Shown here piece by piece: positions 21,806 through 39,000 of a stretch of 53,004 bases of DNA. The stretch comes from Acidobacteriota bacterium (lineage in GTDB: Bacteria > Acidobacteriota > Thermoanaerobaculia > Thermoanaerobaculales > Sulfomarinibacteraceae), in assembly GCA_022340665.1 (NCBI GenBank), contig JAJDNM010000020.1:1-53004 (forward strand), written 5' to 3'. Position 1 is the first letter of the stretch. Every line of letters starts with the position of its first letter. Under the pieces are notes generated by a model, which was not told the DNA's origin, searched no databases, and saw only the letters and a program-made list of their open reading frames with translations. The position numbers and the translations under genes were made by a program.

Positions 21806-24181
21806 TCAAGCCCCTGATTCGAGCTCGACTTCTGTCGCTCCCGAACCGCCGAGGTGCTGCGGCGGGTGGCGATAACCCCGGACGGCAGGATGAGACCGGC
21901 ACACATCAGCCACCATGCTGCGCAAGATGCCGGCGCCGTGACCGTGGACCACGCGCACGGCTGGTGCCCCAGCAGTCAATGCCTGATCGAGGAATCGCTC
22001 GAGCTCCTCGCGTGCGCTCTCGCTGTCGAGTCCAATGAGGTTGATCTCCCGTACGACGTCATCCGCGGAAACCACTTCCACCCTGGCCTGTTGCCTCTTG
22101 GGCGAAGGAGATTTCACCACCTCGAGGTCGGTGATCGGCACCCACAGCTTCTTTCCGGAAACATTCACCTGCGCCTGCGATCCTCGGATTTTGCGGAGCT
22201 CACCTTCACCCCCAATGGCAAGCCGAACGCGAGCGCCCTCGTCCAATCCGTCCTCGGGCTGCGCGGACTCTTCATCGTTGGGAAGCTCGAGGCGCAAGGC
22301 TTCGTCCCGGAGCTTTTGCAGCCGGCGGCGACCCAGAGCCTCGTGCTCCTCAGTCGCCTTCTTCAGCCTGGCAATCGCCTTGTCGAGCTTCAGCTTGGCA
22401 CGGCGGCGGAGCTCTTCCCTCTCCGCGGCCAGCTTATCGGGAAGCTCTCGACGCTCCGCTTCGAGCCGTTCGAGCTCGCGTTCGGCCTCGCCCCGGGCCC
22501 GCTCCGCCTCATGCTGCCGCTGGAGAACCCGGGCTCGCTCGAACTCGAGCTCCCGCTCCAATTTCTCCAGCCTTCGCAGCCAGCGGTCGAGCTCGAGGTG
22601 CTCACCGCCGAGCAGCTCCCTCGCGCGTTCCAGGACATCTTCGGACACTCCCATGCGGCTGGCGATCTCGAGCGCTCTCGACCGGCCGGGCCGGCCAATG
22701 CTCAGCGTGTAGGTGGGCAGCTCGGAGTCCTCGTCGAACTCCATCGCGGCGTTGTCCATACCGTCGGCGGAGCTTGCATAGAGAGCGATCGCCGCCAGGT
22801 GGGTCGTGACAACAGTCATTACACCGTGCCGGTTGAGCTCGTCGAGAAGGGCGCATCCGAGCGCCGCGCCCTCGAGCGGGTCGGTTCCTGCACCGAGCTC
22901 GTCGAACAGGACGAGGGTCTTGTCGTCCGCGTATTCGAGCAGTTGGGCGGTCGCCGCCATTGCCGCCGAGAATGTCGACAAGTCAGCGCCTACGTCCTGC
23001 TCGTCTCCGATGTGGCACCAGATGCGATCGAAGGCCGGAACAGTCGTTCCCTCGTCGGCCGGGACCGGGATGCCACTGAAAGACATCAGAACCATCAGTC
23101 CGATCGTCTTGAGCACCACCGTCTTGCCGCCGGCATTGGGACCGGAAATGACCAGTGCATTGATGCCCTCTGGCATCTTGAAGTCCAGCGGAACGACCCG
23201 GTGTTCCGGGTCTCGCCGTTCGGCGTCGCCAAAGACCTCGACCCTCAGGGCATGGAGGCGTTCATCGAGCAAGGGGTGACGCGCGGCCAGCAGCATCAGG
23301 TCCCCCGCACCACCGGGAACCACTACACGTCCCTCCGCCGCGCGCCCGAAGAGGACCTTGGCCTGGACCGCATCGAGCTCCGCGAGCACCCCGATCGCAT
23401 GCACGAGATCGTCTCCGGCGTCGGTGAACAGGCGATTGATCTCGTGCAGAATGCGCTGAATTTCTCGCCCTTCACCCGCGATCGCAGCGGCCAGTCTGTT
23501 ATTCAGTTCGACCACGCCGAAGGGCTCGACAAAGGAGGTCGCACCTCGAGACGAGACATCGAGGAGGAGGCCATCGAGCTGGGCTCTGGCCGAAGATCGG
23601 ACAGGCAGGCAATAGCGGTCACGCCGCATGGTCGGCGGCGCATCCGTCACCACATCCCTGTTCGATCGGCGAATCGCTTCGAGCTCCGCAAGAACGTCCG
23701 AGCGGGCGCGTGTGATCTCGCGCCTCAGACGGGCCAGCTCAGGCGATGCGTCGTCGGCGACGGTTCCGTCTCGACCGAGCATCGGGGCCACCATGTCGAC
23801 CAGCTCCTTGGTATCGGCGAGCCGGTCCAGAATGGGACCGAATTCATCGCTCTCAGAGGATAGGAGGCGACGACGGATGGCCGCTATCCGTCGCGCAAGG
23901 GCCAACAGGGCTACGAGGTCGCGGGGCTCCGATGGCGGTGGGGCGTCCTCTTCCAACCACGGCTCCGCCTCGTCCACTCCGGACATCGACAGCACTCCGT
24001 CGTCCTCGATCAGATGCGCCACGGCCTGGGTCAGGTGGGCATTTCGGACACGTTCCGTGGAATCGCCAGCCAGAACGGCAAGATCACGGATGACAACGCG
24101 GCCCACACGCGTTCGCGCATGGGCCGCGACCAGTTCGAGAACCTTATCGAATTCCAGTTCGACGGCAAGCGATCGGGACAC
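21806..24181 (-). CDS. mutS2: Endonuclease MutS2 / ribosome-rescue ATPase
   Basis: 791 residues. A helical core and clamp (about 1-320) lead to the MutS-type ATPase with Walker A GPNAGGKT near 346-353, the signature region (DVGADLSTFSAAMAATAQLL), Walker B (TLVLFDELGAGTDP) and VTTHLAA. A long coiled coil follows (about 510-640), then a KOW-like segment (GARVRLAIGGEGELRKIRG) and the C-terminal Smr nuclease domain with HGHGAG near 750. Family roles proposed are suppression of recombination and splitting of collided ribosomes. It starts with GTG four bases after the rpsU stop, so it is cotranscribed with rpsU, an unusual partner within the rpsU-dnaG-rpoD cluster. Confidence 0.95.
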   Translation of the reverse strand: MSRSLAVELEFDKVLELVAAHARTRVGRVVIRDLAVLAGDSTERVRNAHLTQAVAHLIEDDGVLSMSGVDEAEPWLEEDAPPPSEPRDLVALLALARRIAAIRRRLLSSESDEFGPILDRLADTKELVDMVAPMLGRDGTVADDASPELARLRREITRARSDVLAELEAIRRSNRDVVTDAPPTMRRDRYCLPVRSSARAQLDGLLLDVSSRGATSFVEPFGVVELNNRLAAAIAGEGREIQRILHEINRLFTDAGDDLVHAIGVLAELDAVQAKVLFGRAAEGRVVVPGGAGDLMLLAARHPLLDERLHALRVEVFGDAERRDPEHRVVPLDFKMPEGINALVISGPNAGGKTVVLKTIGLMVLMSFSGIPVPADEGTTVPAFDRIWCHIGDEQDVGADLSTFSAAMAATAQLLEYADDKTLVLFDELGAGTDPLEGAALGCALLDELNRHGVMTVVTTHLAAIALYASSADGMDNAAMEFDEDSELPTYTLSIGRPGRSRALEIASRMGVSEDVLERARELLGGEHLELDRWLRRLEKLERELEFERARVLQRQHEAERARGEAERELERLEAERRELPDKLAAEREELRRRAKLKLDKAIARLKKATEEHEALGRRRLQKLRDEALRLELPNDEESAQPEDGLDEGARVRLAIGGEGELRKIRGSQAQVNVSGKKLWVPITDLEVVKSPSPKRQQARVEVVSADDVVREINLIGLDSESAREELERFLDQALTAGAPAVRVVHGHGAGILRSMVADVCRSHPAVRGYRHPPQHLGGSGATEVELESGA

Positions 24182-24185
24182 CGGG

Positions 24186-24398
24186 CTAGAGCAAGCCGGC
24201 GCGCCGCTGCTTGGCCATCTTGCGAAGCATTTTTTTGCGGGCTTGAATCATTTCCCGCTTGCGGCGCTCGGACGGCTTCTCGTAAAAACGCCGCCGTTTG
24301 ACCTCGGAGAGGATGCCAGCCTTTTCGCACTTCCGCTTGAAGCGCCGAAGTGCCTGCTCGAAGGACTCGTTGTCACGAACTGTGACTCCTGTCGGCAT
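24186..24398 (-). CDS. rpsU: 30S ribosomal protein S21
   Basis: A 70-residue basic protein of the small subunit. The S21 signature is clear: [23 protein letters not shown] (in parts), [15 protein letters not shown], and a Lys/Arg-rich tail. It heads the minus-strand cluster rpsU-mutS2-dnaG-rpoD. A strong promoter lies about 75 bases upstream. Confidence 0.97.
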
Positions 24399-24470
24399 GT
24401 TGGCTCACCCCCTCTCGGTGCGGATTGCGCCGATGGCTGAGACGCCAGCGACGCGCACATCAAGATCGTG

Positions 24471-24499
24471 AGGATATCACCGAGGCCGAAAGGCGTCAA
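24471..24499 (-). promoter_or_regulatory. Promoter of rpsU-mutS2
   Basis: TTGACG and TATCCT with a 17-base spacer on the minus strand, ahead of rpsU. The remaining upstream spacer (24500-24676) contains a short hairpin CCGAC-AGCA-GTCGG followed by CCATTTTTTATT on the plus strand (24548-24572) and no gene. Confidence 0.6.
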
Positions 24500-24676
24500 T
24501 CGCACGGGATAACACCATCAATCACAACCATTTGACTGATATGGTTCCCGACAGCAGTCGGCCATTTTTTATTGGTACAGCGAGGGCGCCCCGAGGGACG
24601 CCCGTCTGGATCTTCGATTATCGATCCCGTGTCCAATCTCGGCAGCCCGAGAGCGACAACCGGGAAAAGTCCAGTC

Positions 24677-25474
24677 CTACTCCTCGACTACCTTGACCTT
24701 CACCGCGTCGAAATTCTTGTTGTAAACCTTGTTGTTGTTGGTTTTGAAGTAGACCGCTGCAGCACCGCCCTCACGCTTCCGATAGAGCCAGGTTTCGACC
24801 TTTCGTTTCTCGTCGACCTGGATGTTCTGGTAATAGGGCACCCCTGCGATTTCCTTGACCTCGTCCATGGTCATGTTCTTCTTCACCTCGTCGAATCGCT
24901 CCTGGGTGATGAAGCGCATTTCATCGAGCTCCGCCATCTTGTCGATCAGAGGCTGATAGGGCGGCAGTCCGATGGATTCGTAATAACTGCTCGCCGAATC
25001 CAGCTGGTTGATCGCCTTCTTATAGTCGCCGGCCTTGGCGACCGTGTCGTCTGCGATCAGGATGGCCTCGTCCGAGTACAGGTTGAGGCCTTCAGCCGTT
25101 GCTGGATGCTCGGGAAAATCGTTGAGGGCAATATTGAGGAAATCCGCCAAGGTCGATTGCACGGCGTCGTAAGCCGCATCTCGAGCTGCCGTCTGCTCTT
25201 CGATCGACGCCGGAAGTGTTTCGAGCTCCACCTTCTGCTCATCGGTCCGATCGCGCTCCTGAATAGCCTCGATCTCTGCGAGCCTGGTCTCCAAGGCCGC
25301 GAGCTCCGCTCTGGCCTGATTCAAATCTTCATGCTGCTGTTGCAGGGTTGCCAGCTGCTCCTCGAAGCGGGCTTTTTTCAAATCCTCTTCGCTCGGCCCA
25401 CTCGAGCACCCGAGCAACAGTCCAAAAACAACCAGAGTCGCAATGCCATGCGGCAGGAATCGGCTTTTTCTCAT
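24677..25474 (-). CDS. Lipoprotein with coiled coil and SmpA/BamE-like C-terminus
   Basis: 265 residues. A signal peptide ends in the lipobox LLLGC (Cys about 23). Residues 30-100 are a Gln/Glu/Leu-rich coiled coil; 100-190 is helical. The last 65 residues (MTMDEVKEIAGVPYYQNIQV...WLYRKREGGAAAVYFKTNNNKVY) look like a BamE/SmpA fold: a motif with DEV near a helix, then Tyr-Arg-rich strands. A role in outer-membrane or envelope assembly is a guess. GGGAGGAG lies just before the ATG. Divergent from the GAF gene. Confidence 0.75.
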   Translation of the reverse strand: MRKSRFLPHGIATLVVFGLLLGCSSGPSEEDLKKARFEEQLATLQQQHEDLNQARAELAALETRLAEIEAIQERDRTDEQKVELETLPASIEEQTAARDAAYDAVQSTLADFLNIALNDFPEHPATAEGLNLYSDEAILIADDTVAKAGDYKKAINQLDSASSYYESIGLPPYQPLIDKMAELDEMRFITQERFDEVKKNMTMDEVKEIAGVPYYQNIQVDEKRKVETWLYRKREGGAAAVYFKTNNNKVYNKNFDAVKVKVVEE

Positions 25475-25494
25475 GACTCCTCCCTTCGCCCTGC

Positions 25495-25523
25495 AAGCTA
25501 GCAGAAACCGCCTTTCGTTACAA
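25495..25523 (-). promoter_or_regulatory. Possible promoter of the lipoprotein gene
   Basis: TTGTAA and TAGCTT (with TGC just before, extended -10 form) separated by 17 bases, about 20 bases before the ATG. Confidence 0.3.
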
Positions 25524-25622
25524 CGTCAGTCGCGGGAATCCGTGAGACCGGTTCGCTCGACCGAATCGAGCCTCCATTTCGTCGCCCACCTCAGATCGCG
25601 GATCACACGTGAAATCAATTGC

Positions 25623-25652
25623 TTGACGAAAGGACGCATGGCTGGCGATAAT
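25623..25652 (+). promoter_or_regulatory. Promoter of the GAF-slt-yjbQ unit
   Basis: TTGACG and GATAAT (five of six matches each) separated by 18 bases, giving a leader of about 20 bases that contains the GGAGG at 25671-25675. Confidence 0.65.
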
Positions 25653-25679
25653 AGTTTTAGTGCGCGAATTGGAGGCCAT

Positions 25680-27131
25680 ATGGACCGGTACGATGCCATC
25701 CTCGAGCAGCTCAAACAGGCACAGAATCATGGTCTCGATTCGGTGGAAACCCGCCTCGATGCCATCGTCGCAAGCCTTGAAGAGCTGATTCAGTCGGCAA
25801 GGGCAGCTGTTCAAGACGCTCGACTCAAGGACGCCGAGGAGTTGCTGCCATTGGCCGAGGTCGAGGCACTGTTGGAAGAAGCCCGCGCCGAGGCCCAGGT
25901 CCCGCCACCGCCACCACCAGCGCCGGGCATCACGCTCGACAACCTGCGAAATCTGGACGCGGCACGCAGCCAGTCGGAACTCCTGAGGGCGCTGCTGCCG
26001 ATGATGGCCGAGCATGTCGGTCGTGCCGTCGTCCTGGTCATCCGCGACGGGGTTGTTTCGGCGTGGAGCGGCATTGGGTTCGCGGACGGAGAGAAACTAC
26101 GAAGCTGGCACGGTGGAGTCGCCGTTTCGCCGAGCTTTTCCGAGCTGATGGAAAACTCAAAACCGACGATGATCGATCCCAGGACCGACCCCCTGCTCTC
26201 CGAATGGCTGCAGGAGGATGCTGTTCCGGATGAAGGGGCTCTGCTTCCGATCTCCTTGCGCGGCAAACTCATGGGCATCGTCTATGTCGACCACCACGGC
26301 AACCAGCCGTGGAACATCGAGGCCGCACAGTCACTCAACGCAGTCGCCTGCTGGCTGATCGACACTCTGCACCATCGCATGACCATCCCGACGCCCACCG
26401 TTGCGGTGCTCGCATCGGCCGAGGGCGAGCCATCCGATGCCGAGGTCGCGGTCGGGGAAACACCGGAGCCATCCGCCGACGAAGAACCGGACGATGGCGT
26501 GTCCGAGGAAGCGCACGCAGTCGAATCCGAGTTTGAAGGCGGCAGTCAAGACGCTATCGAAATCGAGACTATCGAGGAAGACGACTTCGAGGAACCGGAA
26601 GTTTCCGGGGAGCCTGAACCGGCCGAGTTCGACTTCGAGCCCGAAGAGATGCCAACGGAGACCGGCGCCGAGGAGGAGGAGTTCGATTCTTCGGCAACGG
26701 TTCAGATCGATCCCACCGAAGAGGACTTGAGCCCGGAGCCTGCCGAGGAAGAGCTGCCCGCGGAGGCGGCTCCGCCTTCGGCCGAGGTCCAGCCGCCTGC
26801 CTCGGAGGTCGAAGCCCCTCCGCCTGTACGCCCGGTCGAACCACCGCCCGACATCGAAGCCGAACCCGTGTCGGACGAGGACGCTCGCCAGGAAGAGGCA
26901 AGGCGGTTTGCCCGCCTGCTCGTATCGGAGATCAAGCTCTACAACGAGGATGAGGTCGAGCGCGGTCGGGCTGAAAGGGATCTCTGCACACGTCTCAGGG
27001 AAGACATCGACCGCAGCCGCGAGATGTTCGAGAAGCGCATTCCGGCCGATGTCCGGGAAGGTCACGACTATTTTCAGGATGAGCTGATCCGGATTCTCGC
27101 CGACGGTGACGCAGATGCCCTCGGCGTGTGA
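25680..27131 (+). CDS. GAF-like domain protein with acidic linker and conserved C-terminal helix
   Basis: 483 residues from the ATG at 25680, which has GGAGG five bases upstream; a longer open frame upstream has no start signal. Residues 1-70 are helical (a leucine-rich coil). Residues about 85-220 resemble a GAF sensor (RAVVLVIRDG, LLPISLRGKLMGIVYVDH). Residues 230-405 are Glu/Pro-rich and nearly devoid of basic residues. The last 75 residues (EEARRFARLLVSEIKLYNE, then RAERDLCTRLREDIDRSREM) are conserved-looking and helical, of a kind I associate with Acidobacteriota regulators. No output domain is visible, so it may be a scaffold. The stop overlaps the next gene (GTGTGA). Confidence 0.7.
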   Translation: MDRYDAILEQLKQAQNHGLDSVETRLDAIVASLEELIQSARAAVQDARLKDAEELLPLAEVEALLEEARAEAQVPPPPPPAPGITLDNLRNLDAARSQSELLRALLPMMAEHVGRAVVLVIRDGVVSAWSGIGFADGEKLRSWHGGVAVSPSFSELMENSKPTMIDPRTDPLLSEWLQEDAVPDEGALLPISLRGKLMGIVYVDHHGNQPWNIEAAQSLNAVACWLIDTLHHRMTIPTPTVAVLASAEGEPSDAEVAVGETPEPSADEEPDDGVSEEAHAVESEFEGGSQDAIEIETIEEDDFEEPEVSGEPEPAEFDFEPEEMPTETGAEEEEFDSSATVQIDPTEEDLSPEPAEEELPAEAAPPSAEVQPPASEVEAPPPVRPVEPPPDIEAEPVSDEDARQEEARRFARLLVSEIKLYNEDEVERGRAERDLCTRLREDIDRSREMFEKRIPADVREGHDYFQDELIRILADGDADALGV

Positions 27132-29092
27132 ATCGAGAGATCGGTAATCGTCTTCACCTTTTCTTGATCCTGATGGTGGCGGTTGCGGCCGCCGCCTGCG
27201 TTGCCGACGCCCCGGAGCCGGAAAGCCGGTCCGAACGACACGAAATCCTCGAGACGGCGTTTTCGCAATCCGAGTCGGATCCAGCTCGAGCCGCGGCACT
27301 TTTCGCAGACGCCGGTCCAGGTTCTTCTTTGGAGACATCGCGTATGACGGTGTGGGCCGCCTGCCTGGAGCGGGCCAACGCCGGACCCGACGGGTGGCGC
27401 CGCTACCTGGAAGATCGACCTCCCGAACAACTTGCGACCCGCGCGCGCCTCGCATTGGTCAGGACACTGATCGAAAGAGGTTTTTTCGAGACAGCGTTGT
27501 CTGAACGATCGCGACTGCCAAGCCTGGCACAGCCACAGGCCGATCGGCTTCTGCTCGATGTCGACGATCCTGCGATACACGATCCAGCAGCACGTCGCCT
27601 GGCGATCAGCTCCCCGGCATTCCTGTCCTCGGCAGATGGCGAACTCGACCGCAATCTGGTCTCCACCCTGTCACGACAAGAGCTCCTGGCGCGGTCAGAC
27701 GCATGGATCCGTGCCGAGAGGCCATCGCGAGGAATTGCAGAGCTACGACGAAAGACGTGGTCGGGCGAAGATGAGAAGCGACGGCGGAGGGCCTTGGCTC
27801 GTGCCGCGCTTGCGGCAAACTCGCCAAGACAAGCGCTCAACGAGCTCCCTCACGAACGAAACTCCGACGCCGAAGATTTCATCCTCCGCGCACAGGCCCT
27901 GCGAGATCGCGGGTGGCATCTTTTCCCAGGTCGTGGCGAGCAGCGGGTTTTCCGAAACTGCGCGGCGGCAGCCCAGGCGGCGCTCGCCCTCGGAACGTCT
28001 GAAGAGGGACGACAATCCGCACTCATCCTCCGGCTCGAGTGTTCGACACAAGCGGAGCTGCTCGACGACGCTTATGAGAGCTGGCGAGTACTCGAGGCCG
28101 GCCAGTGGAGCGGCTCGCGTCGCAGTTGGCTCGGGCGACGCCTCGGGGTGGCGATGGCACGGGCGGGCGAACGGGATCCCCAGGTCCAGGAAATTGCCCG
28201 AAGCCTCCCCTCACAGAGGCGTTGCCTCCGTTACTGGATGGCCGTCGGCGCTCCGGGCGGCGACGACGCGATTCGTGCCGAGCTCGCCGGAGCCGAGATA
28301 GCCGATCTCTATGGCCAGTGGTCGCGAGAGGAGATCACAGCCTCGCCGAACACCGGACCTCGCTTCGGTGATGCGTCGACCCCTGCGACCCCACCGGGAG
28401 CGGTGGAGCAGCTCATCGCTGTCGGCGCCGACAAAGAGGCCCTGCGCGAGTGGCGGCGCATCCGGCTGTCGCGCCCACCGTTGCCTGAAAGGGCTTTGGC
28501 CGCCGCTGAGATGGCCGCAGGTCTCGGTCAGTCTCTCGAACCGATCCGTTGGCTACGCTCGGGCTTTCCGGAGCTCGGTACGATTGAAATGGCCCGCTCT
28601 CCGGAAAACGTGATCCGTGCCTATCTGCCCCTGCGCTGGTCGAATGCGGTCGTTGCCGCCGCGGGCGAGTCCGCAGTCGAGCCGTGGTTGATCGCAGGAG
28701 TCGCTCGCCAGGAGAGCGGCTTCTCGGCCCACGCGGTCTCCCCACGGGGGGCGATCGGAGTCCTCCAGCTCCTGCCATCGACAGCTCGCTTGCACGCGAG
28801 ATCCCTGGGTTTCGGTTCCAAACCCGACCTTCAGGATCCAGAGACCAACATTCGTTTGGGCGCACGCGAAATTGGCGCCCTGATTCGCCGTTTCGGCGAG
28901 ATCGAACCAGCCCTTGCGGCGTACAATGCAGGACTGACCCGAGTGCGTGGCTGGTGGAAACGGTGGCCCGATCGACACCGCTTCACCGAGGAGATCCCGA
29001 TCCCGGAAACCTACGACTATGTCCGCAGGGTGACGTTTCTCGCCGATGCATACCGCCTGGTTTACGAAGAGGAATGGAGCGACGCACGATGA
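27128..29092 (+). CDS. Soluble-type lytic transglycosylase (lipoprotein)
   Basis: Cleaves the MurNAc-GlcNAc bond of peptidoglycan to a 1,6-anhydro product in the periplasm. 654 residues. The N-terminus looks like a lipoprotein signal (AVAAAAC at about residue 24). Residues 35-490 form the helical superhelix of Slt70-type enzymes, including tetratricopeptide-like helices. The C-terminal SLT domain (about 515-640) has ARQESGFS with catalytic Glu near 528, GAIGVLQLLPSTA and AAYNAGLTRV. The GTG start overlaps the preceding gene by four bases and the stop overlaps yjbQ (ATGA). Confidence 0.92.
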   Translation: MNREIGNRLHLFLILMVAVAAAACVADAPEPESRSERHEILETAFSQSESDPARAAALFADAGPGSSLETSRMTVWAACLERANAGPDGWRRYLEDRPPEQLATRARLALVRTLIERGFFETALSERSRLPSLAQPQADRLLLDVDDPAIHDPAARRLAISSPAFLSSADGELDRNLVSTLSRQELLARSDAWIRAERPSRGIAELRRKTWSGEDEKRRRRALARAALAANSPRQALNELPHERNSDAEDFILRAQALRDRGWHLFPGRGEQRVFRNCAAAAQAALALGTSEEGRQSALILRLECSTQAELLDDAYESWRVLEAGQWSGSRRSWLGRRLGVAMARAGERDPQVQEIARSLPSQRRCLRYWMAVGAPGGDDAIRAELAGAEIADLYGQWSREEITASPNTGPRFGDASTPATPPGAVEQLIAVGADKEALREWRRIRLSRPPLPERALAAAEMAAGLGQSLEPIRWLRSGFPELGTIEMARSPENVIRAYLPLRWSNAVVAAAGESAVEPWLIAGVARQESGFSAHAVSPRGAIGVLQLLPSTARLHARSLGFGSKPDLQDPETNIRLGAREIGALIRRFGEIEPALAAYNAGLTRVRGWWKRWPDRHRFTEEIPIPETYDYVRRVTFLADAYRLVYEEEWSDAR

Positions 29093-29469
29093 ACACGATC
29101 GAAGTTCGCACCACGTCACACCGTCAGATGGTCGACATCACCCGTCGAGTGGCGGCGACTGTCGAAGATATCGAAAGCGGGATATGCCACGTTTACATCC
29201 CGCACACGACGGCCGCCGTGGTCATCAATGAGCACGCCGACCCGGATGTCGCGCGAGATCTGATTGCCGCCTACGAAGCGATGGTGCCGGATATTCGTTT
29301 CGCTCACGCCGAAGGCAATTCCGATGCCCACCTCATGACGACTCTGCTCGGCAGCTCGGTCACGGTACCAGTGGCAAATGGCCGATTGCGGCTCGGCACC
29401 TGGCAGGGGATCTTCTTCGTCGAGCTCGATGGACCACGCACACGGAAGGTCTGGGTCGACATTCGCTGA
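29089..29469 (+). CDS. yjbQ: YjbQ/UPF0047 family protein
   Basis: 126 residues from the ATG in the ATGA overlap. The family fold and motifs are clear: YIPHTTAAVVINEHADPDV, EGNSDAHLMTTLLGSSVTVP and LGTWQGIFFVELDGPR. The conserved His/Asp/Glu set likely binds a metal. Members have weak thiamine-phosphate-synthase activity by annotation, but the true role is unsettled. It is the third gene of the GAF-slt unit and shares no obvious function with them. Confidence 0.93.
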   Translation: MNTIEVRTTSHRQMVDITRRVAATVEDIESGICHVYIPHTTAAVVINEHADPDVARDLIAAYEAMVPDIRFAHAEGNSDAHLMTTLLGSSVTVPVANGRLRLGTWQGIFFVELDGPRTRKVWVDIR

Positions 29470-29667
29470 AGCGTGCATCTGCGCTTCGCGCCGAAGTGCT
29501 ATCGAGAGTCAATCACGATCTCCAGCCACGATCTGCACTAAGGGGCCTCATTCGAGTTACTTAACCGATTGTACATATTGTCAGACATACAAGTATAAGA
29601 AAACAAAAGATTTCTCCCTCTTGACAGTTCAGGAATCTTTCCGACAATGGAGTCGGAGGACCGTGCT
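29470..29667 (+). promoter_or_regulatory. AT-rich promoter region of the multiheme cytochrome gene
   Basis: This 198-base spacer is markedly more AT-rich than its surroundings between 29560 and 29640. Candidate elements are TATAAG (29594-29599) with TTGTAC 19 bases upstream, and a TTGACA near 29621 whose matching GACAAT would give a start at the Shine-Dalgarno. I cannot choose between them. Confidence 0.35.
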
Positions 29668-31728
29668 ATGCCTCGGTGGATTTCCCCGCGTTTCATCTCC
29701 CGTCAACTCGCTCTTCCCATTCTCGTCGCGGTTGCGTTCTGGGGCTTGGTCGGTGGCGGAACGGTGGTCGCTCAGGAAGAGGAGTACGAGCCGATCGACA
29801 GCACCGCCTGCGCCGACTGCCACGAGGCCACCCGATACGGGTCCGCCTTTGCCGATGACATCTCGCACTCCGCACACGATGGTCTCGAGTGTCTCGACTG
29901 CCACGTTGATCGCGACACCGTTCCCCACCGCTCGCTGGAGGAGACGTTCTTCCCGGGCTGTCAGGGATGCCGCACCTGCCACGAGGAAGCGTCGGAGGAA
30001 TATCAGGCGCACGGCCGCGCCCGGCTCGGCTCGTGCGAAGACATGCCGCAGTGTTCGGACTGCCACGGTTCACACGACATCCTGCCGTCGACCGCCGCGC
30101 GGTCCTCCGTTCACCCGACCAATCTTCCCCAGACCTGCGGCACATGCCACGAAAACCTCGACATCACGACAAAGTACGACATTCTGATCGACCACCCGAT
30201 CCAGATCTACGCGCGTTCCGTCCACGGACAGGCGACCCGCGGCGGCGTCTACGTGGCCGCGAGCTGTAATGACTGCCACTCCTCCGGCGGCACCGCACAT
30301 AAGATCCTGTCTCCGGGGTCCCCGGATTCGAGCATCAACCACTTCAACATCCCGAAGACCTGTGGCCAGTGCCACAAGGGCATCGAATCCGACTACTGGG
30401 AGGGCATCCACGGCCAGCTGGTGGCACGGGGAGAGACCGACGCACCGGTGTGCACCGACTGCCATGGTGAACACGGCATCCTGTCGCCAGACGATCCGCT
30501 GTCGCCGGTGTCCGGATCGAAGGTCGCCGAGATGACCTGCTCGCCGTGTCACGAATCGGCGGTGCTCAACGAGAAATACGGCATCAAGACCGAGCGTTTG
30601 ACGACCTTCATTGATTCCTACCACGGGCTCAAGTCGAAGGCCGGCGACACCCACGTCGCGAATTGCGCGTCGTGCCACGGCGTCCACCGGATTCTGCCGA
30701 GCTCGGACCCGACCTCTACAGTCAATCCGGCAAACCTGCAGCACACCTGCGGTGAATGCCACCCGAATATCTCCGAGAAGATGGCGTCGACGCCGATACA
30801 TGGTCTTGGCGGCCAGGGGCTGCGCACCCCAGCGGCAGACGTCGTCGAGAAGATCTACATCGTTGCCATCACAGTGATCATCGGGCTGATGATCCTCCAC
30901 TGGGTCATCGACCTCATGCGCCACCTCGCGGACAGGATCAAGGAGCGCCCGGCGGTCCTTCGCATGCATATCGACGAGGTCGTCCAGCACGCGCTGCTCA
31001 CGATCACGTTCATAACCCTGGTGATTTCTGGTTTCGCTCTCCGATACGACCAGGGCTTCATGGCGCGCTTCTTCTTCGGATGGGAAGGAGGATTCGAGAT
31101 CCGCGGCGTGGTCCACCGAGCTGCAGCGATCGGATTCATGATCACGATCATCTGGCATGTGCTGTACCTCTTCTCTCCGAGAGGCCGCACGTTCATCAAG
31201 GACATGTGGCCGATCAAGCGCGACTTCCAGTTCTTCGCCCGCCGCATGCTCTACAACCTCGGGCTGCGTCCGCGGATGGAGTGCGTCCAACGATTCAACT
31301 ACGTCGAAAAGGCGGAGTACTGGGCACTGGTGTGGGGCACGGTGGTCATGGTCATTACCGGTGTCATGCTTTGGTTCGACAACTGGTTCATCCAGTTCCT
31401 TCCGAAAGGGGTCCTCGACGTCGCCCTGGTGATTCACTTCTGGGAGGCCTGGCTGGCCTCATTGGCGATTCTGATCTGGCACTTCTACTCGGTAATCTTC
31501 CATCCCCACGTCTACCCGATGAACCCGAGCTGGATCACCGGCCATGTGCCAGAGGATATGTACGAACATGAGCACCCGGGCCACCTCGAAGAGGCACGAC
31601 GGGAAACAGAGCGGGTCATCGACCGTCGCATCGAACGCATGCGCAAAAGGGACTCCCAGACCGATCAGGAGGAACAGCCGAAGACAGAGGCGAAACCGAA
31701 AGAGGACACCGAAGACGACGAGTCGTGA
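29668..31728 (+). CDS. Eleven-heme cytochrome c fused to a membrane cytochrome b domain
   Basis: 686 residues from the ATG at 29668, which has GGAGG eight bases upstream. A signal/anchor segment (about 10-36) exports the N-terminal domain, which contains eleven CxxCH heme c sites between residues 48 and 365 (CADCH, CLDCH, CRTCH, CSDCH, CGTCH, CNDCH, CGQCH, CTDCH, CSPCH, CASCH, CGECH) and many extra His ligands. Residues 380-625 form a cytochrome b561-like membrane domain with at least four helices and His pairs (ILHWVIDLMRH, VVHRAAAIGFM, IWHVLYLF, VIHFWEAW, LIWHFYSVIFHPHVYP). The tail is highly charged. The design recalls CbcL-type quinol dehydrogenases of metal reducers. Electron donor quinol and acceptor are inferred only. 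Confidence 0.88.
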   Translation: MPRWISPRFISRQLALPILVAVAFWGLVGGGTVVAQEEEYEPIDSTACADCHEATRYGSAFADDISHSAHDGLECLDCHVDRDTVPHRSLEETFFPGCQGCRTCHEEASEEYQAHGRARLGSCEDMPQCSDCHGSHDILPSTAARSSVHPTNLPQTCGTCHENLDITTKYDILIDHPIQIYARSVHGQATRGGVYVAASCNDCHSSGGTAHKILSPGSPDSSINHFNIPKTCGQCHKGIESDYWEGIHGQLVARGETDAPVCTDCHGEHGILSPDDPLSPVSGSKVAEMTCSPCHESAVLNEKYGIKTERLTTFIDSYHGLKSKAGDTHVANCASCHGVHRILPSSDPTSTVNPANLQHTCGECHPNISEKMASTPIHGLGGQGLRTPAADVVEKIYIVAITVIIGLMILHWVIDLMRHLADRIKERPAVLRMHIDEVVQHALLTITFITLVISGFALRYDQGFMARFFFGWEGGFEIRGVVHRAAAIGFMITIIWHVLYLFSPRGRTFIKDMWPIKRDFQFFARRMLYNLGLRPRMECVQRFNYVEKAEYWALVWGTVVMVITGVMLWFDNWFIQFLPKGVLDVALVIHFWEAWLASLAILIWHFYSVIFHPHVYPMNPSWITGHVPEDMYEHEHPGHLEEARRETERVIDRRIERMRKRDSQTDQEEQPKTEAKPKEDTEDDES

Positions 31729-31794
31729 CCCCGGCCGCCAGCATAGACTCACGAATCGGAGACCGGTGTAGACTGGCGGGCGGAGGATCAACCG

Positions 31795-32043
31795 ATGTCC
31801 GTCGACCCCAAGCTGCTCGAAATTCTCGTCTGTCCGGTGGACAAGACCCCGCTCGAGGTGATCGAGCTGCCCGAGGCGGTTTGCCGCCAGCTGGTGGAAA
31901 AGTACCGGGATCAATTCAAGGGTGAAGAGCCGGTGGTCGAGATCGGTCTCGCTTCGCCCGCCGGACGCGTGTACCCGGTTGTTTCCGGCATTCCCGTGAT
32001 GCTGGTTGATGACGCTCTGTCGCGCGAGGAGATCGAGGGCTGA
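31795..32043 (+). CDS. Trm112/UPF0434-family small protein
   Basis: 82 residues. The pattern LLEILVCPVDKTPLEV followed by YPVVSGIPVML is that of the Trm112-like family. In this copy only one Cys of the usual zinc knuckle is kept (CPVD instead of CPxC), so metal binding is doubtful. Members act as small partners of methyltransferases or have no known role. GGAGGA precedes the ATG. It leads into the O-antigen ligase-like gene with at most a 29-base gap. Confidence 0.85.
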   Translation: MSVDPKLLEILVCPVDKTPLEVIELPEAVCRQLVEKYRDQFKGEEPVVEIGLASPAGRVYPVVSGIPVMLVDDALSREEIEG

Positions 32044-32072
32044 CCAGGCTCGAAAACACCGCCGCAGCTCTT

Positions 32073-33179
32073 TTGATTGTCGGTGTCGCAGCCAGCATCA
32101 AGATCGCCCTCAGCAACGTCCTGCTCGGCATTTCCGGTCTCTTGTGGTTGGCCGTTCTGGTCCGAGGATTCGCGCGTCGTCCCCGCGCATCTATCCTGGT
32201 GCCGCTCGCGGGATACGCGGTCGTCTCCGTCGCCTCCGCCCTGTGGTCCGCCGACCCGCGACACAGCGTTACCGAACTCGCGGACCTGCTGACTCTCGCG
32301 CTCGTGCCAATGATAATTTCGATGCTCGACCAGCGCAGATGGGATCGGCTCCTGATGCTCCTTGCAGCAGTTCTTGCCGCCTCTGCTACGACTGGGCTCA
32401 TGCAATATGTACTTTCTGGAGACCCCATCCACAACCGGATCCGAGGATTCGCCACCCACTACATGACCTTTTCAGGTTGGACCCTGGTCGTGACCCTGGT
32501 GCTGCTCGGCCGCGTTTTCTTCGACTGGAATCGGCGCCACCTGCTGTGGGCGCTGCCGGCCGCCGCTCTCGGTGTGGCAACTCTCCTGCTCGGCCTCACC
32601 CGCGGCGCCTGGATCGGTTTGGCAACCGGCCTCCTGCTCGCCGTCGCCGCCGGCCGGCCCCGGACTCTGGTCATGCTGCCACTCGTGATTTCCCTGCTCG
32701 TGCTTCTCACGCCACAGCCGGTATTGCACCGTGCAGCGACAACCCTCAACCCCGGTGATGCCGCGACCAGAGCGCGGCTCGGCATGTTTCGATCCGGGAT
32801 GGGAATGGTGCAAGACCACCCCTTCCTCGGCCTCGGCCCCGGGTTGGTGCAACCCGCATTCGCGGATTACCGTCGCCCGAACGGGCCCGAGCGAATCCCG
32901 CACCTGCACAACAACGTCATCCAGATCGCCGCCGAACGGGGCCTCGCCGGTTTGGCGGCCTATCTGGCGGTCCTGATTGTCTTCGCGACCCACGTTGTCA
33001 GGGCCGTTCGGTTTGGGCCGACCGAGGCGAGGCCAGCGGTCATCGGTTGTGCGATGGCGGTTGCGGGGGTGACGGCGGCGGGTTTGTTCGAGTACAACTG
33101 GGGGGATGCAGAGGTCTGGATCGTGACCCTGACAAGCCTGAGCGCGCCGTTTGCCCTCGCGCCCCGGGGATCGAAATGA
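32073..33179 (+). CDS. O-antigen ligase-like membrane protein
   Basis: 368 residues with about ten to eleven membrane segments and a periplasmic loop typical of the WaaL/RfaL-Wzy family: RSGMGMVQDHPFLGLGPGLV, then HLHNNVIQIAAERGLAGLAAYL (His-rich ligase motif, in parts). It should join polysaccharide to lipid A core or to another acceptor. Start choice is uncertain: TTG at 32073 has no ribosome site, while an in-frame CTG at 32040 overlaps the previous stop and sits nine bases after GAGGAG, adding eleven residues (TRLENTAAALL after the start). The stop overlaps xseA (ATGA). Confidence 0.88.
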   Translation: MIVGVAASIKIALSNVLLGISGLLWLAVLVRGFARRPRASILVPLAGYAVVSVASALWSADPRHSVTELADLLTLALVPMIISMLDQRRWDRLLMLLAAVLAASATTGLMQYVLSGDPIHNRIRGFATHYMTFSGWTLVVTLVLLGRVFFDWNRRHLLWALPAAALGVATLLLGLTRGAWIGLATGLLLAVAAGRPRTLVMLPLVISLLVLLTPQPVLHRAATTLNPGDAATRARLGMFRSGMGMVQDHPFLGLGPGLVQPAFADYRRPNGPERIPHLHNNVIQIAAERGLAGLAAYLAVLIVFATHVVRAVRFGPTEARPAVIGCAMAVAGVTAAGLFEYNWGDAEVWIVTLTSLSAPFALAPRGSK

Positions 33180-34600
33180 GCGAACCCATCTACACCGTTT
33201 CGGCGCTGGTCGCTGAGGTCAACGCCCTGCTCGAGCAGGGGTTTTCCGGGCTGCGAGTCGAGGGTGAGGTGACCAATACGAGCGCCTCCGGCCGCGGCCA
33301 CGTCTACTTCACGCTCAAGGACGAAACTGCATCGGTCGACTGCGTGATGTGGGCGTCGCGCGCCCGACGTCTCAAGTTCGAACTCGAGCACGGCCTCGCC
33401 GTACTGGTTCTCGGGTCGTTGACGATCTACCCACAGCGCGGCCGATTCCAGATGGTGGTCGACGATATCCAACCTCAGGGCCTCGGCGCCCTGCAACTGG
33501 CATTCGAGCAGCTGAAAGCGAAGCTCGAGGCCGAGGGCCTGTTCGCCACCGAGCGCAAGCGCAGTCTGCCGGCGCTCCCGAACAGAATCGGAATCGTCAC
33601 CTCGGCGACCGGCGCCGCGCTCCAGGACATGCTCAAGGTGCTTCATCGTTTTTCCAACCTCGAAATCATCGTTGCTCCCGCGATGGTGCAAGGCGAAGGG
33701 GCAGCCCAGGAAATCGCTGATGCCATTGGGCGCCTTGCCAGCTCCGGACGGGTCGACGTGATCATCGTCGGACGCGGCGGTGGCAGCCTCGAGGATCTGT
33801 GGGCCTTCAACGAGGAAGACGTCGCGAGAGCGATTGCCGCCAGTCCGGTCCCAGTGATCTCGGGCGTCGGTCACGAGGTCGACTTCACGATCGCCGACTT
33901 CGTGGCCGACATTCGCGCGACCACACCCACCCAGGCAGCCGAGCTGGTGGTATCCCGCCTCGAAGAGCAGCAACGCCGAATCGCGGATGCGCACGCACTT
34001 CTGCTACGCGGTTTCGATCGCAAGCTCGGCCTCGCACGCACCCGTCTGGCGGGCCTAATCGGTTCTTCGGGCCTGGCGCGAGTGCCGCAGCGGGTTCGCC
34101 TGCTGCGAGAGCGCTTTCAGCGAGCCCATCGGCTCGGCCCCGCACTGAGGCGGGTCCACGCCAACGCCAAAACTCGCCTCGACCATGCCGTACGGGGGCT
34201 CGAGCGACTGCCTGCTCGGGTCGCGGCCGGAGGGCACCGCCGGCTCCTGACAAGCCGAAAAGAGCAGCTCGCGCTGCTCATGGCGACGCGCCTGGCCGGA
34301 GCTCACGCGCGAATCAGGGCGGGAGAACGTGCCCTCACCCACCTCGGTCCCACGAAGGTCCTCGAGCGCGGCTACTCCATCACCAGCGTTGAAGGGTCAT
34401 TGACACCCCTACGCGATGCGTCCGCAGTTCGCGGCGGTCAGGCGTTGACCACCCGACTCGCCCGCGGGGTTATCCGATCCCTGGTGCGCAATGGGCCCGC
34501 CGGTCCCAAGCAGCCAAAATCCGACCCGGCACAACAGCCGTCTCTCTTCGACAACGACGCGGAATCCCAGCCCGAAAAACCTGGAGCAGAGCATGAGTGA
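33176..34600 (+). CDS. xseA: Exodeoxyribonuclease VII large subunit
   Basis: 474 residues. An N-terminal OB-fold (YTVSALVAEVNALLEQGFSG, FTLKDETASVDCVMW) leads to the catalytic domain with RIGIVTSATGAALQDML, GRGGGSLEDLWAFNEE and SGVGHEVDFTIADFVADIRA. A coiled-coil C-terminus follows with the LERGYSITS ending strand. Degrades single-stranded DNA together with XseB. The ATG overlaps the ligase stop; the 3' end overlaps xseB by 8 bases. The final 40 residues are a loose Lys/Pro-rich tail. Confidence 0.96.
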   Translation: MSEPIYTVSALVAEVNALLEQGFSGLRVEGEVTNTSASGRGHVYFTLKDETASVDCVMWASRARRLKFELEHGLAVLVLGSLTIYPQRGRFQMVVDDIQPQGLGALQLAFEQLKAKLEAEGLFATERKRSLPALPNRIGIVTSATGAALQDMLKVLHRFSNLEIIVAPAMVQGEGAAQEIADAIGRLASSGRVDVIIVGRGGGSLEDLWAFNEEDVARAIAASPVPVISGVGHEVDFTIADFVADIRATTPTQAAELVVSRLEEQQRRIADAHALLLRGFDRKLGLARTRLAGLIGSSGLARVPQRVRLLRERFQRAHRLGPALRRVHANAKTRLDHAVRGLERLPARVAAGGHRRLLTSRKEQLALLMATRLAGAHARIRAGERALTHLGPTKVLERGYSITSVEGSLTPLRDASAVRGGQALTTRLARGVIRSLVRNGPAGPKQPKSDPAQQPSLFDNDAESQPEKPGAEHE

Positions 34601-34832
34601 CAAGAAGAAAAAGGTTGATCGGTTCGAAGACCAGTTGGCCCAACTGGAGGACATCGTGGACCGTCTCGAGGATGAATCCGTAGGCCTGGAAGAAGCCCTC
34701 GGTCTCTTCGAAAGCGGTATGGACCTGGCGCGCCGTTGCCGTGCCCGCCTGGCTGAGGTCGAGCACCGGGTGACCCAGCTCCTGGAGACGGAAAATGAGG
34801 ACGACGAAGCCGCCGACGAGGACGCCGAGTGA
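34593..34832 (+). CDS. xseB: Exodeoxyribonuclease VII small subunit
   Basis: 79 residues. The pair of helices typical of XseB is clear (FEDQLAQLEDIVDRLEDES, GLEEALGLFESGMDLARRCR) followed by an acidic tail. GAGCAG precedes the ATG, which lies inside the end of xseA. The stop overlaps the GTG of the prenyl synthase (GTGA). xseA-xseB-ispA is a widespread gene order. Confidence 0.95.
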   Translation: MSDKKKKVDRFEDQLAQLEDIVDRLEDESVGLEEALGLFESGMDLARRCRARLAEVEHRVTQLLETENEDDEAADEDAE

Positions 34833-35731
34833 CCGTTGAGCGCCTGCTCGCTCGTGAGAGGGCAGTGGTCGAGACCGCTCTCCGGGAGCTCCTTCCCCCT
34901 TCGGGGGCCTGGCCGGAGCGCTTGTGGACGGCAATGGAGTATGCGGTCTTCGCCGGCGGGAAGCGCGTCAGGCCAGTGCTGGCCCGTCTCGCGTACCGTG
35001 CGGCGGGAGGGGACCCAGACGAGATCACCCGTGCCGCGTGTGGCCTCGAGCTGATCCACACCTACTCGCTGGTCCACGACGACCTCCCGGCGCTCGATGA
35101 CGACGTGCTGCGCCGAGGCCATCCAACGATCCATGTCGCCTTCGACGAGGCGACAGCGATCCTGGTCGGAGACGCCCTGCTCACGGAAGGGCTCCTCCAG
35201 CTCTCGCGCCATCCTGAAGGTGATGAATGGGCAAAAAGACGTGTCGAGGCCGTCGAGATGGTCGCCGATGCCGTTTCGGCGCGCGGGATGATTGGTGGAC
35301 AGGTTGAGGATCTGGAAGCAACCGGACTCGTCGAGAACAGCAACGAGGATCTGCAGACACGACTCGAGCGCATCCATCGACACAAGACGGGCTGCCTGCT
35401 GAGAGCCTCGGTCGAGCTGGGCGCGATTCTGGGAGGCGTCGAAACCTCGCTTCGCACGCTGTTCTCCGGGTACGGGGAGGAACTCGGTCTTGCATTCCAG
35501 ATCGCGGACGACATCCTCGATTCCACAGCCGACGCAAAGAAGCTCGGTAAGAGCCCCGGAAAGGACGAAGCCGGCGGCAAGCTGACCTACGTCACCCTGT
35601 ACGGCATCGATTTGGCCCGACACCGCCTCGACGAGCTCGAGCATCAACTCGTCGAGAAGGCGCAGGCGATCGAAGGCGTGGATGGTGAACTCGCCGCTGT
35701 GGCGCGATTTGTCTGTCGACGGAAGTCATAA
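34829..35731 (+). CDS. ispA: Short-chain polyprenyl (farnesyl) diphosphate synthase
   Basis: Condenses isopentenyl diphosphate with allylic diphosphates. 300 residues. First aspartate-rich motif DDLPALDDD (about 89-97), second DDILD (near 229-233), the GGKRVRP pyrophosphate-binding motif and KTGCLLRASVELGA are in place. The residue before the first motif is Tyr-Ser-Leu-Val-His, in line with a C15 product, but chain length cannot be proved. No dxs gene follows, unlike in many genomes; a repeat-filled spacer ends the unit. Confidence 0.93.
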   Translation: MTVERLLARERAVVETALRELLPPSGAWPERLWTAMEYAVFAGGKRVRPVLARLAYRAAGGDPDEITRAACGLELIHTYSLVHDDLPALDDDVLRRGHPTIHVAFDEATAILVGDALLTEGLLQLSRHPEGDEWAKRRVEAVEMVADAVSARGMIGGQVEDLEATGLVENSNEDLQTRLERIHRHKTGCLLRASVELGAILGGVETSLRTLFSGYGEELGLAFQIADDILDSTADAKKLGKSPGKDEAGGKLTYVTLYGIDLARHRLDELEHQLVEKAQAIEGVDGELAAVARFVCRRKS

Positions 35732-35928: not shown

Positions 35929-36001
35929 ATTGTGGTTTTTCTGTCAATGATGGCGGCCATCTCTGGACGATGCAGCTGCACTTCGGGTACTGTTGAATCT
36001 G

Positions 36002-39000
36002 ATGTTGCGGAAACGCACCTTACTTCTTTTCCTGCTCGCTTTTGTCCTACGACTCATCCTTCAAGGGTGGGACTTCGGCGTAACCTCCTCATCGTCCCAT
36101 CCGGACGAAAGGCAAGTGGGGTTCGTCACCGAACGGGCAGAAGGATGGTTCGATGATCCTGAGTTCTATGCCTACGGTTCGCTCCACTTTCAGGTCATCC
36201 ACCTGACCGCGACCATTCTCGGTGTCGGCGACAACATTCGTGGATACATCGTCAGTGGACGGGCAATCTCGTTGATGGCGTCGATGATCGCCATCTTCCT
36301 CGGCTGGTTCATCGCCACCCGATCGTGGGGACGGAGAACCGGCGATCTCTTCGTATTCCTGGCAGCCTGGGTACCTCTCGATCTTCAACAATCACACTTC
36401 ACGACGGTCGAGGCACACCACGCAGCATGGGTCATGGCGGCGCTCGCAGCATGCATCTGGCTCGCCCATAGCGGGCGACCGATTGCGGCAGCCGCTTCGG
36501 GTGCCGCGATCGGTGCCTCGCTGGCGGTCAAGGTCGCATCTCTCGCACTTGGCCTTCCGCTTCTCGCGGCGGCGCTGATTGCCGCCCGCGGCCGAGGTGT
36601 GCTGGAGGCGATTCGGCTTCTCGCCATCGCCGGTGCCGCCGGCATGACCTGCTTCTGGCTCTGCCAGCCGTGGGCATTTGCCGGCGGCCGGCCGCCGATC
36701 AGCATCGTTGCGACGGCAGTCGTCGCCGCTGCAGCCATCGGGCTGGCCGATCGCACGTCTGGTGGCGCGAGGACGGTCTCTCTGGTCGTCGTGTGCATCG
36801 CCTGTGTTGTCGTAATGCTTCAGGGCGCAGCACTTCTCGGCATCGGCGGCGAACGGATCATCGGCAGGAGCGGTTCGGCGGCCCTCGTCGGCACTACTCT
36901 CAACCCGTCCTATCTGGAGGGTGTCGGCCACGAGATCGCGATGGTCACCGGTGCCTCCGATCTGGCCTACGTGCGGGTCTATGCGCACACGCTTCCGGTG
37001 CTCTATCCGCTGCGTGAGCTCGCTCTCTGGGGCTGGGGCGTCTTCCTGCTGCTCGCCGCGATCGCGGGTTCAGTCGCGGGCTGCTGGCGGCTGGGAGTTC
37101 GGTGGCGGCGGTGGTTGGATCGCCGCTGGACCGACTCCTCGATCCTCTTCGTGATCCTCGCTACATGGTTGCTGCCAATGGCCTCGAGGTTGAGCACTCT
37201 ACAGGTTAAGTTCCTCCGCTACTGGGAGCCCCTGACGGTGCCAGCGGCGTTGATCGCCGCCTGGTGGCTTCTGCGACTTCCGAAGAAGATACGAACTCCC
37301 GCAATCGCGGTAGTGGCTGCCGGCACAGCGCTGTGGGGTCTCGCCTATACCTGGTCCTTTGTCGAACCTCATCCCCATCGCACCGCTTCGAGGTGGCTCG
37401 GTCCGATGCTTGCTGACGAACAGGTCGTGGCCTTTGAACACTGGGACGAGCACATCAATTTGATGATTGAAGACGGTGCTGTGGAGACGGTCGATCTGCC
37501 ATCATACGACCTGCCTGACGATGGACAGAAGGTCGAGACCTGGACCAGCGCACTCGCTCGTGCCGACTGGGTGATCCTGACCTCCAACCGCGTCTGCAGA
37601 ACCGTACTCGCCAACCAGGACCGCTTCGAGAAGACGGCGCGACTCTACAAGCTGTTGTTGTCAGGAAATGCAGGCTTCGAAGTTCTGACCCGGGTGAACC
37701 GAGGTCCGAGGATCTTCGGTGTCCGGCTGCCCGTACAGCGGGCAGACGAGAGCTTCCTCAACTACGAGTTTCCGCAGGTCGTTATCCTTCGCCGCATCGC
37801 CGATGTCAACCCCGGGGAACTGACCGAACGAGTCAGACGGCCGCTGCCCTACCTCGAGGACATGGCCTACGCGGACATCGAACGCCACTTCCTGGCCGAG
37901 GTTCCGGAGCTGCCCCCGGTGCCAACCAAACCGCGTCAACTCTTCGACCTCACGATCTGGATTCTTCTTTTTTCGGGACTCGGTTTGGCGTCCTGGGGAC
38001 TGCTGCTGCCGATCTCCAAAAGTTGGCCGGATACAGGCGCCGGTCTGGCGCTGGTGACCGGGTGGATCGTGCCTGCGTGGCTAATGTGGATGGGCTCGGA
38101 ACTTCGAATCTGGGAAATCGGCCCGGCTACCGCCACATGGATCACACTCGCCCTGATGGCGGCGGGCGGCGTCGCCATCTTCAGGCGATGGTCCGTGATC
38201 AAGGACATTTTCCGCCGACGGAGATCCTCGGTCCTCATGGTGTTGGCAGTGACGGCAACTGTTGGCGCCCTGTTCCTCGTAGTGCGTGCCTGGAACCCGG
38301 CCATCCACTGGGGCGAAAAGCCGATGGACTTTTCGTTCCTCAACGCCTTTCTTCGTGCCCCGAACTGGCCGACTGGAGAGCCCTGGATGGCAGGGATGCC
38401 TCTCCACTACTACTACTTCGGCGAGGTGCTCGCCGCCTACCCGATCCTGGTAGCGGGCTGTACTGCAGGGGTGGGTTATAACCTGATCTGCGGGACCATC
38501 CCCGCCCTCTTCGCATCAGTTCTCGCCGGCCTCGGGCTCCTGCTCGGCCGCCGGTTTCCGATTCGAAAGCAGTGGCAGATTGCCGCTGCTTCGGTGTTGC
38601 CGTTGCTGGTGCTGCTGACCGGCAACCTCGCCTGGCCATGGCTGCTCGATACCTTGAAGACGGGCAACCTGTTCGATCTGTGGTGGGCAACATCCCGTGT
38701 GGTACCTGGGTTTGCGATCGATGAATATCCCTTGTGGACGACTCTCTTCGCCGATCTACACGGCCATTTCATCGCCTTCCCTGTTCTCGTCACCACGTTT
38801 GCGTGGGGCTGGCTCTGCGTCACGGCCCGGGATCGGAAATGGATCGCTGCGGCCTTCCTATGCGGCATCGGCGCGGCGGTTGTCGTCGCCACCAACCCCT
38901 GGGATTTGTTCATCCTCACCGGCGCGTTGGGGGTGGGTACGATTGTGGCAGCCCGCCGCCCCTTCCGCGGTCTCGCACGACTGGGTGCCGCGGCGACTCT

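Follow-up and report, generated by a model that had tools for sequence, protein, structure and literature searches.

A lone gene for an eleven-heme cytochrome c fused to a diheme b-type membrane domain, a probable CbcL-like quinol dehydrogenase of an Acidobacteriota bacterium

The locus studied here raises the question of what function a multiheme cytochrome c fused to a b-type membrane domain has in an Acidobacteriota bacterium. In the window, i.e., the whole stretch of 53,004 nucleotides analyzed, the open reading frame (ORF) at 29647-31728 (+) encodes 693 amino acids from its upstream ATG and 686 amino acids from the ATG at 29668. Residues are numbered on the 686-residue form, the start of which is that of the initial annotation; the in-frame ATG at 29647 adds seven residues. 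The initial annotation had placed eleven CxxCH sites ahead of a b561-like region in one polypeptide, and this arrangement was confirmed by motif count, Pfam analysis, and a five-helix b-type domain. The ORF contains exactly 11 CxxCH motifs (first Cys at residues 48, 75, 101, 129, 157, 200, 232, 262, 291, 333, and 361), every one of which is N-terminal to the membrane domain. The Pfam families Cytochrome_C7, Cytochrom_c3_2, and Paired_CXXCH_1 matched the N-terminal half, and Ni_hydr_CYTB ("prokaryotic cytochrome b561") matched residues 439 to 615 with 43.1 bits (cut-off 30.1). A DNA pattern for paired CxxCH motifs missed the gene because its motifs sit too far apart. No relatives of the protein were retrieved in a scan of viral contigs or in a plasmid tblastn search.

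The start codon and signal peptide cover residues 1 to 36 (29668..29775, +), with a hydrophobic segment near residue 16 and a cleavage site placed by eye. The periplasmic c-type domain with its 11 CxxCH motifs follows at residues 37 to 385 (29776..30822, +), as defined by motifs, Pfam, alignment, and model. Transmembrane helix A (residues 388 to 419; 30829..30924, +), which carries H411, was assigned from the alignment and the model, and the FdnI-type diheme b domain (30970..31500, +), with helices at residues 435 to 459, 475 to 501, 545 to 569, and 580 to 611, from these and Pfam. Together, these segments are the five long membrane helices of the AlphaFold2 model, which was built with 50 sequences and had a mean pLDDT of 83.3 and a pTM of 0.70 for the whole protein. 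A charged C-terminal tail and the stop codon (31501..31728, +) complete the gene. The numbers of Lys and Arg residues are 4 in loop A-B and 10 in loop C-D, as compared to 1 in loop B-C and 0 in loop D-E; this pattern fits a periplasmic heme domain and a tail predicted to be cytoplasmic.

All 11 motifs were invariant in the 50 aligned homologs, which come from many phyla, and were kept in the 24 eleven-heme members of the class that were compared; judged by this conservation, the eleven-motif array is not due to chance. The c domain contains 11 further conserved His residues outside the motifs (H70, H87, H115, H136, H186, H211, H248, H269, H319, H340, and H378), ten of them present in 50 of 50 homologs and H87 in 49. 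Apart from the start residue, no c-domain Met was conserved in at least 35 of the 50 homologs. With eleven spare His residues for eleven hemes, every c-heme is therefore probably bis-His coordinated. Modeled alone, the c domain had a pLDDT of 88.3 and a pTM of 0.84. The fold matches listed for it are multiheme cytochromes, and the Z-scores are modest: hydrazine dehydrogenase (6hif_I; Z 8.6, 181 residues, rmsd 3.3) leads within a tie that includes MtrA (6r2q_A; Z 8.3, 212 residues, rmsd 4.5). Foldseek alone gave no match for the c domain under an E value of 0.001. The domain thus resembles the MtrA/DmsE decahemes in its structural match to MtrA and by profile, given that hhalign aligned it with three DmsE-type decahemes at a probability of 98.6 over 216 columns, a figure inflated by the shared CxxCH motifs. 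It differs from these decahemes in its membrane anchor and its 11 hemes, and the TIGR03508 profile (DmsE/MtrA decaheme) did not match the window protein up to an E value of 0.1.

In the b domain, H441, H483, H590, and H605 were present in all 50 homologs and align with H18, H57, H155, and H169 of FdnI, the gamma subunit of E. coli formate dehydrogenase-N, which we take to be the b-heme ligands of FdnI. H411 of helix A is a His in 43 of the 50 homologs and a Tyr in the others. The best solved match of the b domain was FdnI itself (1kqf_C; Z 15.3, 209 residues, rmsd 4.7), followed by the cytochrome b of hydrogenase-1 (Z of about 11). In its diheme fold of four helices and its full set of four b-heme ligands, the window protein thus agrees with FdnI, whereas FdnI has neither helix A nor a c-heme domain and works with FdnGH.

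The survey by Zhong and Shi (2018; PMC6295460) describes CbcL/MtrH/MtoC homologs with 3 to 23 CX2CH motifs and 416 to 1,034 amino acids in 15 phyla; members have conserved membrane His residues, and some adjoin mtrAB-type genes. The window protein has the same order, with a multiheme c domain N-terminal to a b-type membrane domain in a single chain; its 11 motifs and 686 amino acids are within the published ranges, and its four invariant b-domain His residues correspond to the conserved membrane His. On sequence grounds, it is a member of this known broad family related to Geobacter CbcL, on a separate branch. The latter was seen in a b-domain tree of 88 rows drawn from 203 b domains plus HyaC, for which repeat loci and eight fragments or odd rows were left out and larger groups were sampled at random, and in a second version, to which the organism's own 23-heme protein was added and from which HyaC and a single long-branch row were removed. 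In the second version, the window clade fell into a branch of mostly 11- and 13-heme fusions (46 rows, support 99/93), whereas the 9-heme CbcL-like rows were in another branch together with 19- to 23-heme fusions (28 rows, 100/99). Branches of CbcL-like rows and 19- to 23-heme fusions, supported at 98/87 and 100/99, were apart from the window protein, and the organism's 23-heme paralog (contig C125) was placed within the CbcL-like branch. Judged by these trees, the window protein is not in the CbcL branch proper, and the 23-heme paralog is nearer to it. The 9-heme rows are presumed CbcL proteins, recognized by 9 hemes, a heme 1 near residue 35 (after renumbering of the start where it was uncertain), and a domain mass of 27.2 to 27.7 kDa, as compared to 28.9 kDa for the published tagged construct (PMC9129911); they come from the phylum to which a Syntrophaceae genome belongs. 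None of the best 80 of 455 relatives was titled Geobacter.

The resemblance to CbcL-type quinol dehydrogenases proposed in the initial annotation was borne out by the same fusion order, a probable all-bis-His c domain, and an FdnI-type diheme b domain. CbcL of Geobacter sulfurreducens (GSU0274) likewise has its multiheme c domain at the N terminus, joined to a diheme b domain, and only bis-His c-hemes, as would the window protein to judge from the conservation of its 11 extra His residues. The additional helix A with its His is also common to CbcL-like proteins and the window protein. The difference in heme count and spacing noted at the outset stands as well, with 11 hemes versus 9 in CbcL and a different spacing, and several CbcL-like proteins have a sixth, C-terminal helix that the window protein lacks. 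CbcL is needed for low-potential extracellular acceptors and reduces PpcA. At one CbcL-like locus (L202), a six-heme three-helix protein adjoins, an arrangement that we compared with the consecutive accessions of ImcH and CbcL of D. acetexigens.

Close relatives (59 to 84% identity) were found in 14 of the 20 genomes of the taxonomic family searched, its own included, three of them as pieces at contig edges, and in three more genomes of the class (G047, G113, and G066). The best 80 of 455 relatives belong to Acidobacteriota, Zixibacteria, Latescibacterota, Krumholzibacteriota, Gemmatimonadota, Planctomycetota, Ignavibacteria, Bacteroidota, and others. The nearest named ones among these 80 (60 to 66%) are from "Candidatus Polarisedimenticola svalbardensis," two Aminicenantes, a Neomarinimicrobiota, and an unclassified bacterium; metal-oxide respiration has already been proposed for "Ca. 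P. svalbardensis" (PMC8528874). In our literature search, which for most papers covered the search listings, no eleven-heme CbcL relative was named. The broad family is known; added here are the separate 11/13-heme branch, the accounting of His residues, the pattern of odd heme numbers, the lone conserved gene address, and the link to acidobacterial MtrCAB without a nearby gate.

The gene is alone among housekeeping genes. Its neighbors, none of which is redox related, are a lytic transglycosylase (SLT; 27128..29092, +) and a UPF0047 family protein (29089..29469, +) upstream and a Trm112-like protein (31795..32043, +) downstream, the first and the last being conserved in the family, with exonuclease VII genes beyond them. 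Of the 15 clade loci that were compared, 9 show this order at least in part, whereas it was not seen in the other six (L061, L062, L063, L074, L075, and L077). The window yielded no second cytochrome: apart from this gene, a single called ORF (16589-17335) has two CxxCH motifs, and it encodes a C4 zinc-ribbon protein. No conduit or other multiheme gene was present near the clade gene in the window or in the seven loci read at length (L062 is cut at the gene). In the loci of the 80 named relatives (the best 80 of 455), the main gene was cleanly called in 70, and the ten in which the gene caller lost it were dropped. Another gene with at least three motifs was found within 4 kb in 58 of the 70, and an ImcH-like gene with 5 to 7 motifs and three helices was nearby in 26; the lone state is therefore the exception. 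The initial statement that no partner cytochrome lies nearby consequently applies to the window and its lineage but not to most relatives. A separate feature of the window is a gene at 35993-41539 (+) for a protein of 1,848 amino acids that combines DUF2298 and about 20 hydrophobic segments with NHL repeats in its C-terminal part; in some relatives, homologs of this protein are encoded near the clade gene.

Porin-cytochrome genes, for which a search had been suggested in the initial annotation, were found elsewhere in the same genome, on contigs C12 and C72. C12 encodes, in this order, an OmcA/MtrC-family decaheme (TIGR03507, 436 bits; cut-off 209), a DmsE-family decaheme (TIGR03508, 201 bits; cut-off 192), and an MtrB/PioB porin (MtrB_PioB, 25.7 bits; cut-off 23), whereas C72 encodes a GSU2203-family decaheme (338.6 bits; cut-off 325) and a GSU2204-family protein (492 bits; cut-off 350). 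The C72 segment (L072:3065-9655, +) comprises genes for a monoheme cytochrome c, a DUF3373 protein, an octaheme-type cytochrome, and the latter two proteins. The mtrCAB survey in PMC8805035, which did not examine other parts of the genomes, found no inner-membrane quinone oxidoreductase beside acidobacterial mtrCAB clusters. The present genome contains an OmcA/MtrC-DmsE-MtrB set and, at other locations, encodes two candidate gates, namely, the 11-heme and the 23-heme b-fusion, and these are specific candidate genes for the acidobacterial quinol gate. The 23-heme paralog on C125 (L055:9149-12292, -; 1,047 amino acids, 23 CxxCH motifs, and a b domain) adjoins a five-CxxCH NapC/NirT-type membrane protein. 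C141 carries two NrfD-type modules (L069:4648-8380, -, and L070:4290-7704, +) in which iron-sulfur proteins accompany multiheme c3 cytochromes, one of them with 16 CxxCH motifs; these modules are possibly further quinone gates.

Co-occurrence was analyzed in 148 genomes of the class, and a genome was counted as having the 11-heme fusion if its match had an E value of at most about 1e-100; matches confined to the c part or to the 19- to 23-heme paralog did not count. A DmsE-type decaheme was present in 47 of 53 genomes with the fusion versus 49 of 95 without, and OmcA/MtrC in 23 of 53 versus 17 of 95. By genus (69 genera), DmsE-type decahemes were found in 31 of 33 versus 25 of 36 (P = 0.013), and the P value for OmcA/MtrC was 0.006, both uncorrected for phylogeny. 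In G065, another genome of the class, a 42%-identical homolog adjoins a DmsE-like decaheme that is below the DmsE cut-off (171 versus 192) and a beta-barrel that scores weakly.

Based on the observed fusion, motifs, ligand conservation, fold match, tree position, and presence of conduits, we consider it fairly likely that the protein is a single-chain CbcL-like quinol dehydrogenase of the cytoplasmic membrane that passes electrons through its 11 hemes to the periplasm, probably to outer-membrane conduits encoded elsewhere in the genome. Quinol as the donor, the direction, the electron path, and the use in extracellular respiration are what we infer from this basis. Electrons from quinol would enter the FdnI-type b domain near the cytoplasmic-side b heme (H441/H605) and move to the periplasmic-side b heme (H483/H590) and from there to the c domain, whose eleven bis-His hemes would form a wire into the periplasm. 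The c domain would then probably deliver them, directly or via other cytochromes, to the conduits encoded on C12 or C72. The quinone site of FdnI is on the cytoplasmic side; with such a site, outward flow would proceed without energy conservation, whereas inward flow would conserve energy. For a CbcL homolog, a recent paper (PMC12545173) speaks of a scalar proton-motive mechanism.

Two other readings assign the protein to known enzyme types. The b domain could be a subunit of a formate dehydrogenase or hydrogenase that has become detached from its partner, since the four ligand His residues and the fold are common to FdnI and HyaC. However, the formate dehydrogenase gamma profile TIGR01583 scored 48.4 bits against a cut-off of 115.85, a scan of ten flanking proteins (window 21809-35728) turned up no dehydrogenase subunit, and FdnI and FdoI were far apart from the window protein in the b-domain tree, with full support (84 rows, 100/100). 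A grouping with such subunits, which the initial annotation had named as contrary evidence, was thus not seen in the trees, and we regard this origin as extremely improbable. Scarcely more credible is a catalytic multiheme enzyme for hydroxylamine, hydrazine, or nitrite chemistry on a b-type anchor, as might be read from the c-domain matches to 6hif_I (Z 8.6) and to hydroxylamine oxidoreductases. At such Z-scores a shared arrangement is common, and MtrA scores the same; moreover, eleven conserved non-motif His residues for eleven hemes leave no open site and, together with the lack of a conserved c-domain Met, argue that there is probably no open catalytic heme.

The remaining alternatives keep the enzyme type and change the partner or the direction. 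It is possible, though doubtful, that the protein acts as a general hub between quinol and the periplasm and supplies soluble periplasmic reductases instead of outer-membrane conduits. This would agree with a solitary gene in housekeeping surroundings, with a seven-CxxCH protein on C72 that resembles octaheme tetrathionate reductases (304 bits, under the cut-off of 375), and with the taxonomic-family genomes that carry the clade, in which OmcA/MtrC is present in 5 of 14 and none is shown in the other 9. DmsE-type decahemes, on the other hand, were found in 13 of these 14 genomes, the exception being G016, which is 66% complete. Unlikely in our view is the reverse direction, in which a quinone reductase would fill the quinone pool with electrons from donors in the periplasm or outside the cell, for example, Fe(II). 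The MtoC homologs of Fe(II) oxidizers belong to the same broad family, and the survey in PMC6295460 found no feature that tells the direction; the genome has two COX1-type oxidases, and inward flow would be the energy-conserving one. The characterized CbcL nevertheless works as a quinol oxidase (PMC9129911). Because it also encodes the COX1-type oxidases and the NrfD-type modules, the latter together with multiheme cytochromes, this genome has further gates and further roles besides the proposed CbcL-like quinol dehydrogenase.

Considering the different heme numbers in the family, we inspected 172 distinct b-fusions with at least two motifs. After removal of 33 that were truncated at an edge or had no hydrophobic N terminus, 139 counted as full length. 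An odd number of motifs (3, 7, 9, 11, 13, 17, 19, 21, or 23) was observed in 135 of the 139, and an even number (12 or 18) in only 4. To judge from the spacing, a single motif seems to have been lost in one or more of these four, including L136. A simple way to read the numbers is that diheme units were added to an odd base; the 135 odd cases are not independent events, because the sequences are related. Eleven extra His residues and mostly odd heme numbers provide a simple rule for reading an otherwise confusing family. A bolder version, which we think quite unlikely as a whole, would see the c domain as a fixed, genetically measured periplasmic wire, an image based on motif spacing and fold matches. 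This wire would grow in diheme steps (9, 11, 13, 17, 19, 21, and 23), and its long forms would span the periplasm, so that they could dock onto decahemes of the outer membrane with no need for a soluble shuttle. The two proteins of one cell, with 11 and 23 hemes, would then be gates of short and long reach, and they would supply acidobacterial MtrCAB with the quinol gates that it lacks. Among the 139 fusions, six have three hemes and the reverse order, with the b domain first and then three CxxCH motifs. Such reverse-order fusions are encoded at L192, L193, L195, L196, and L197, and at several loci they adjoin genes for six- and 22-CxxCH proteins.
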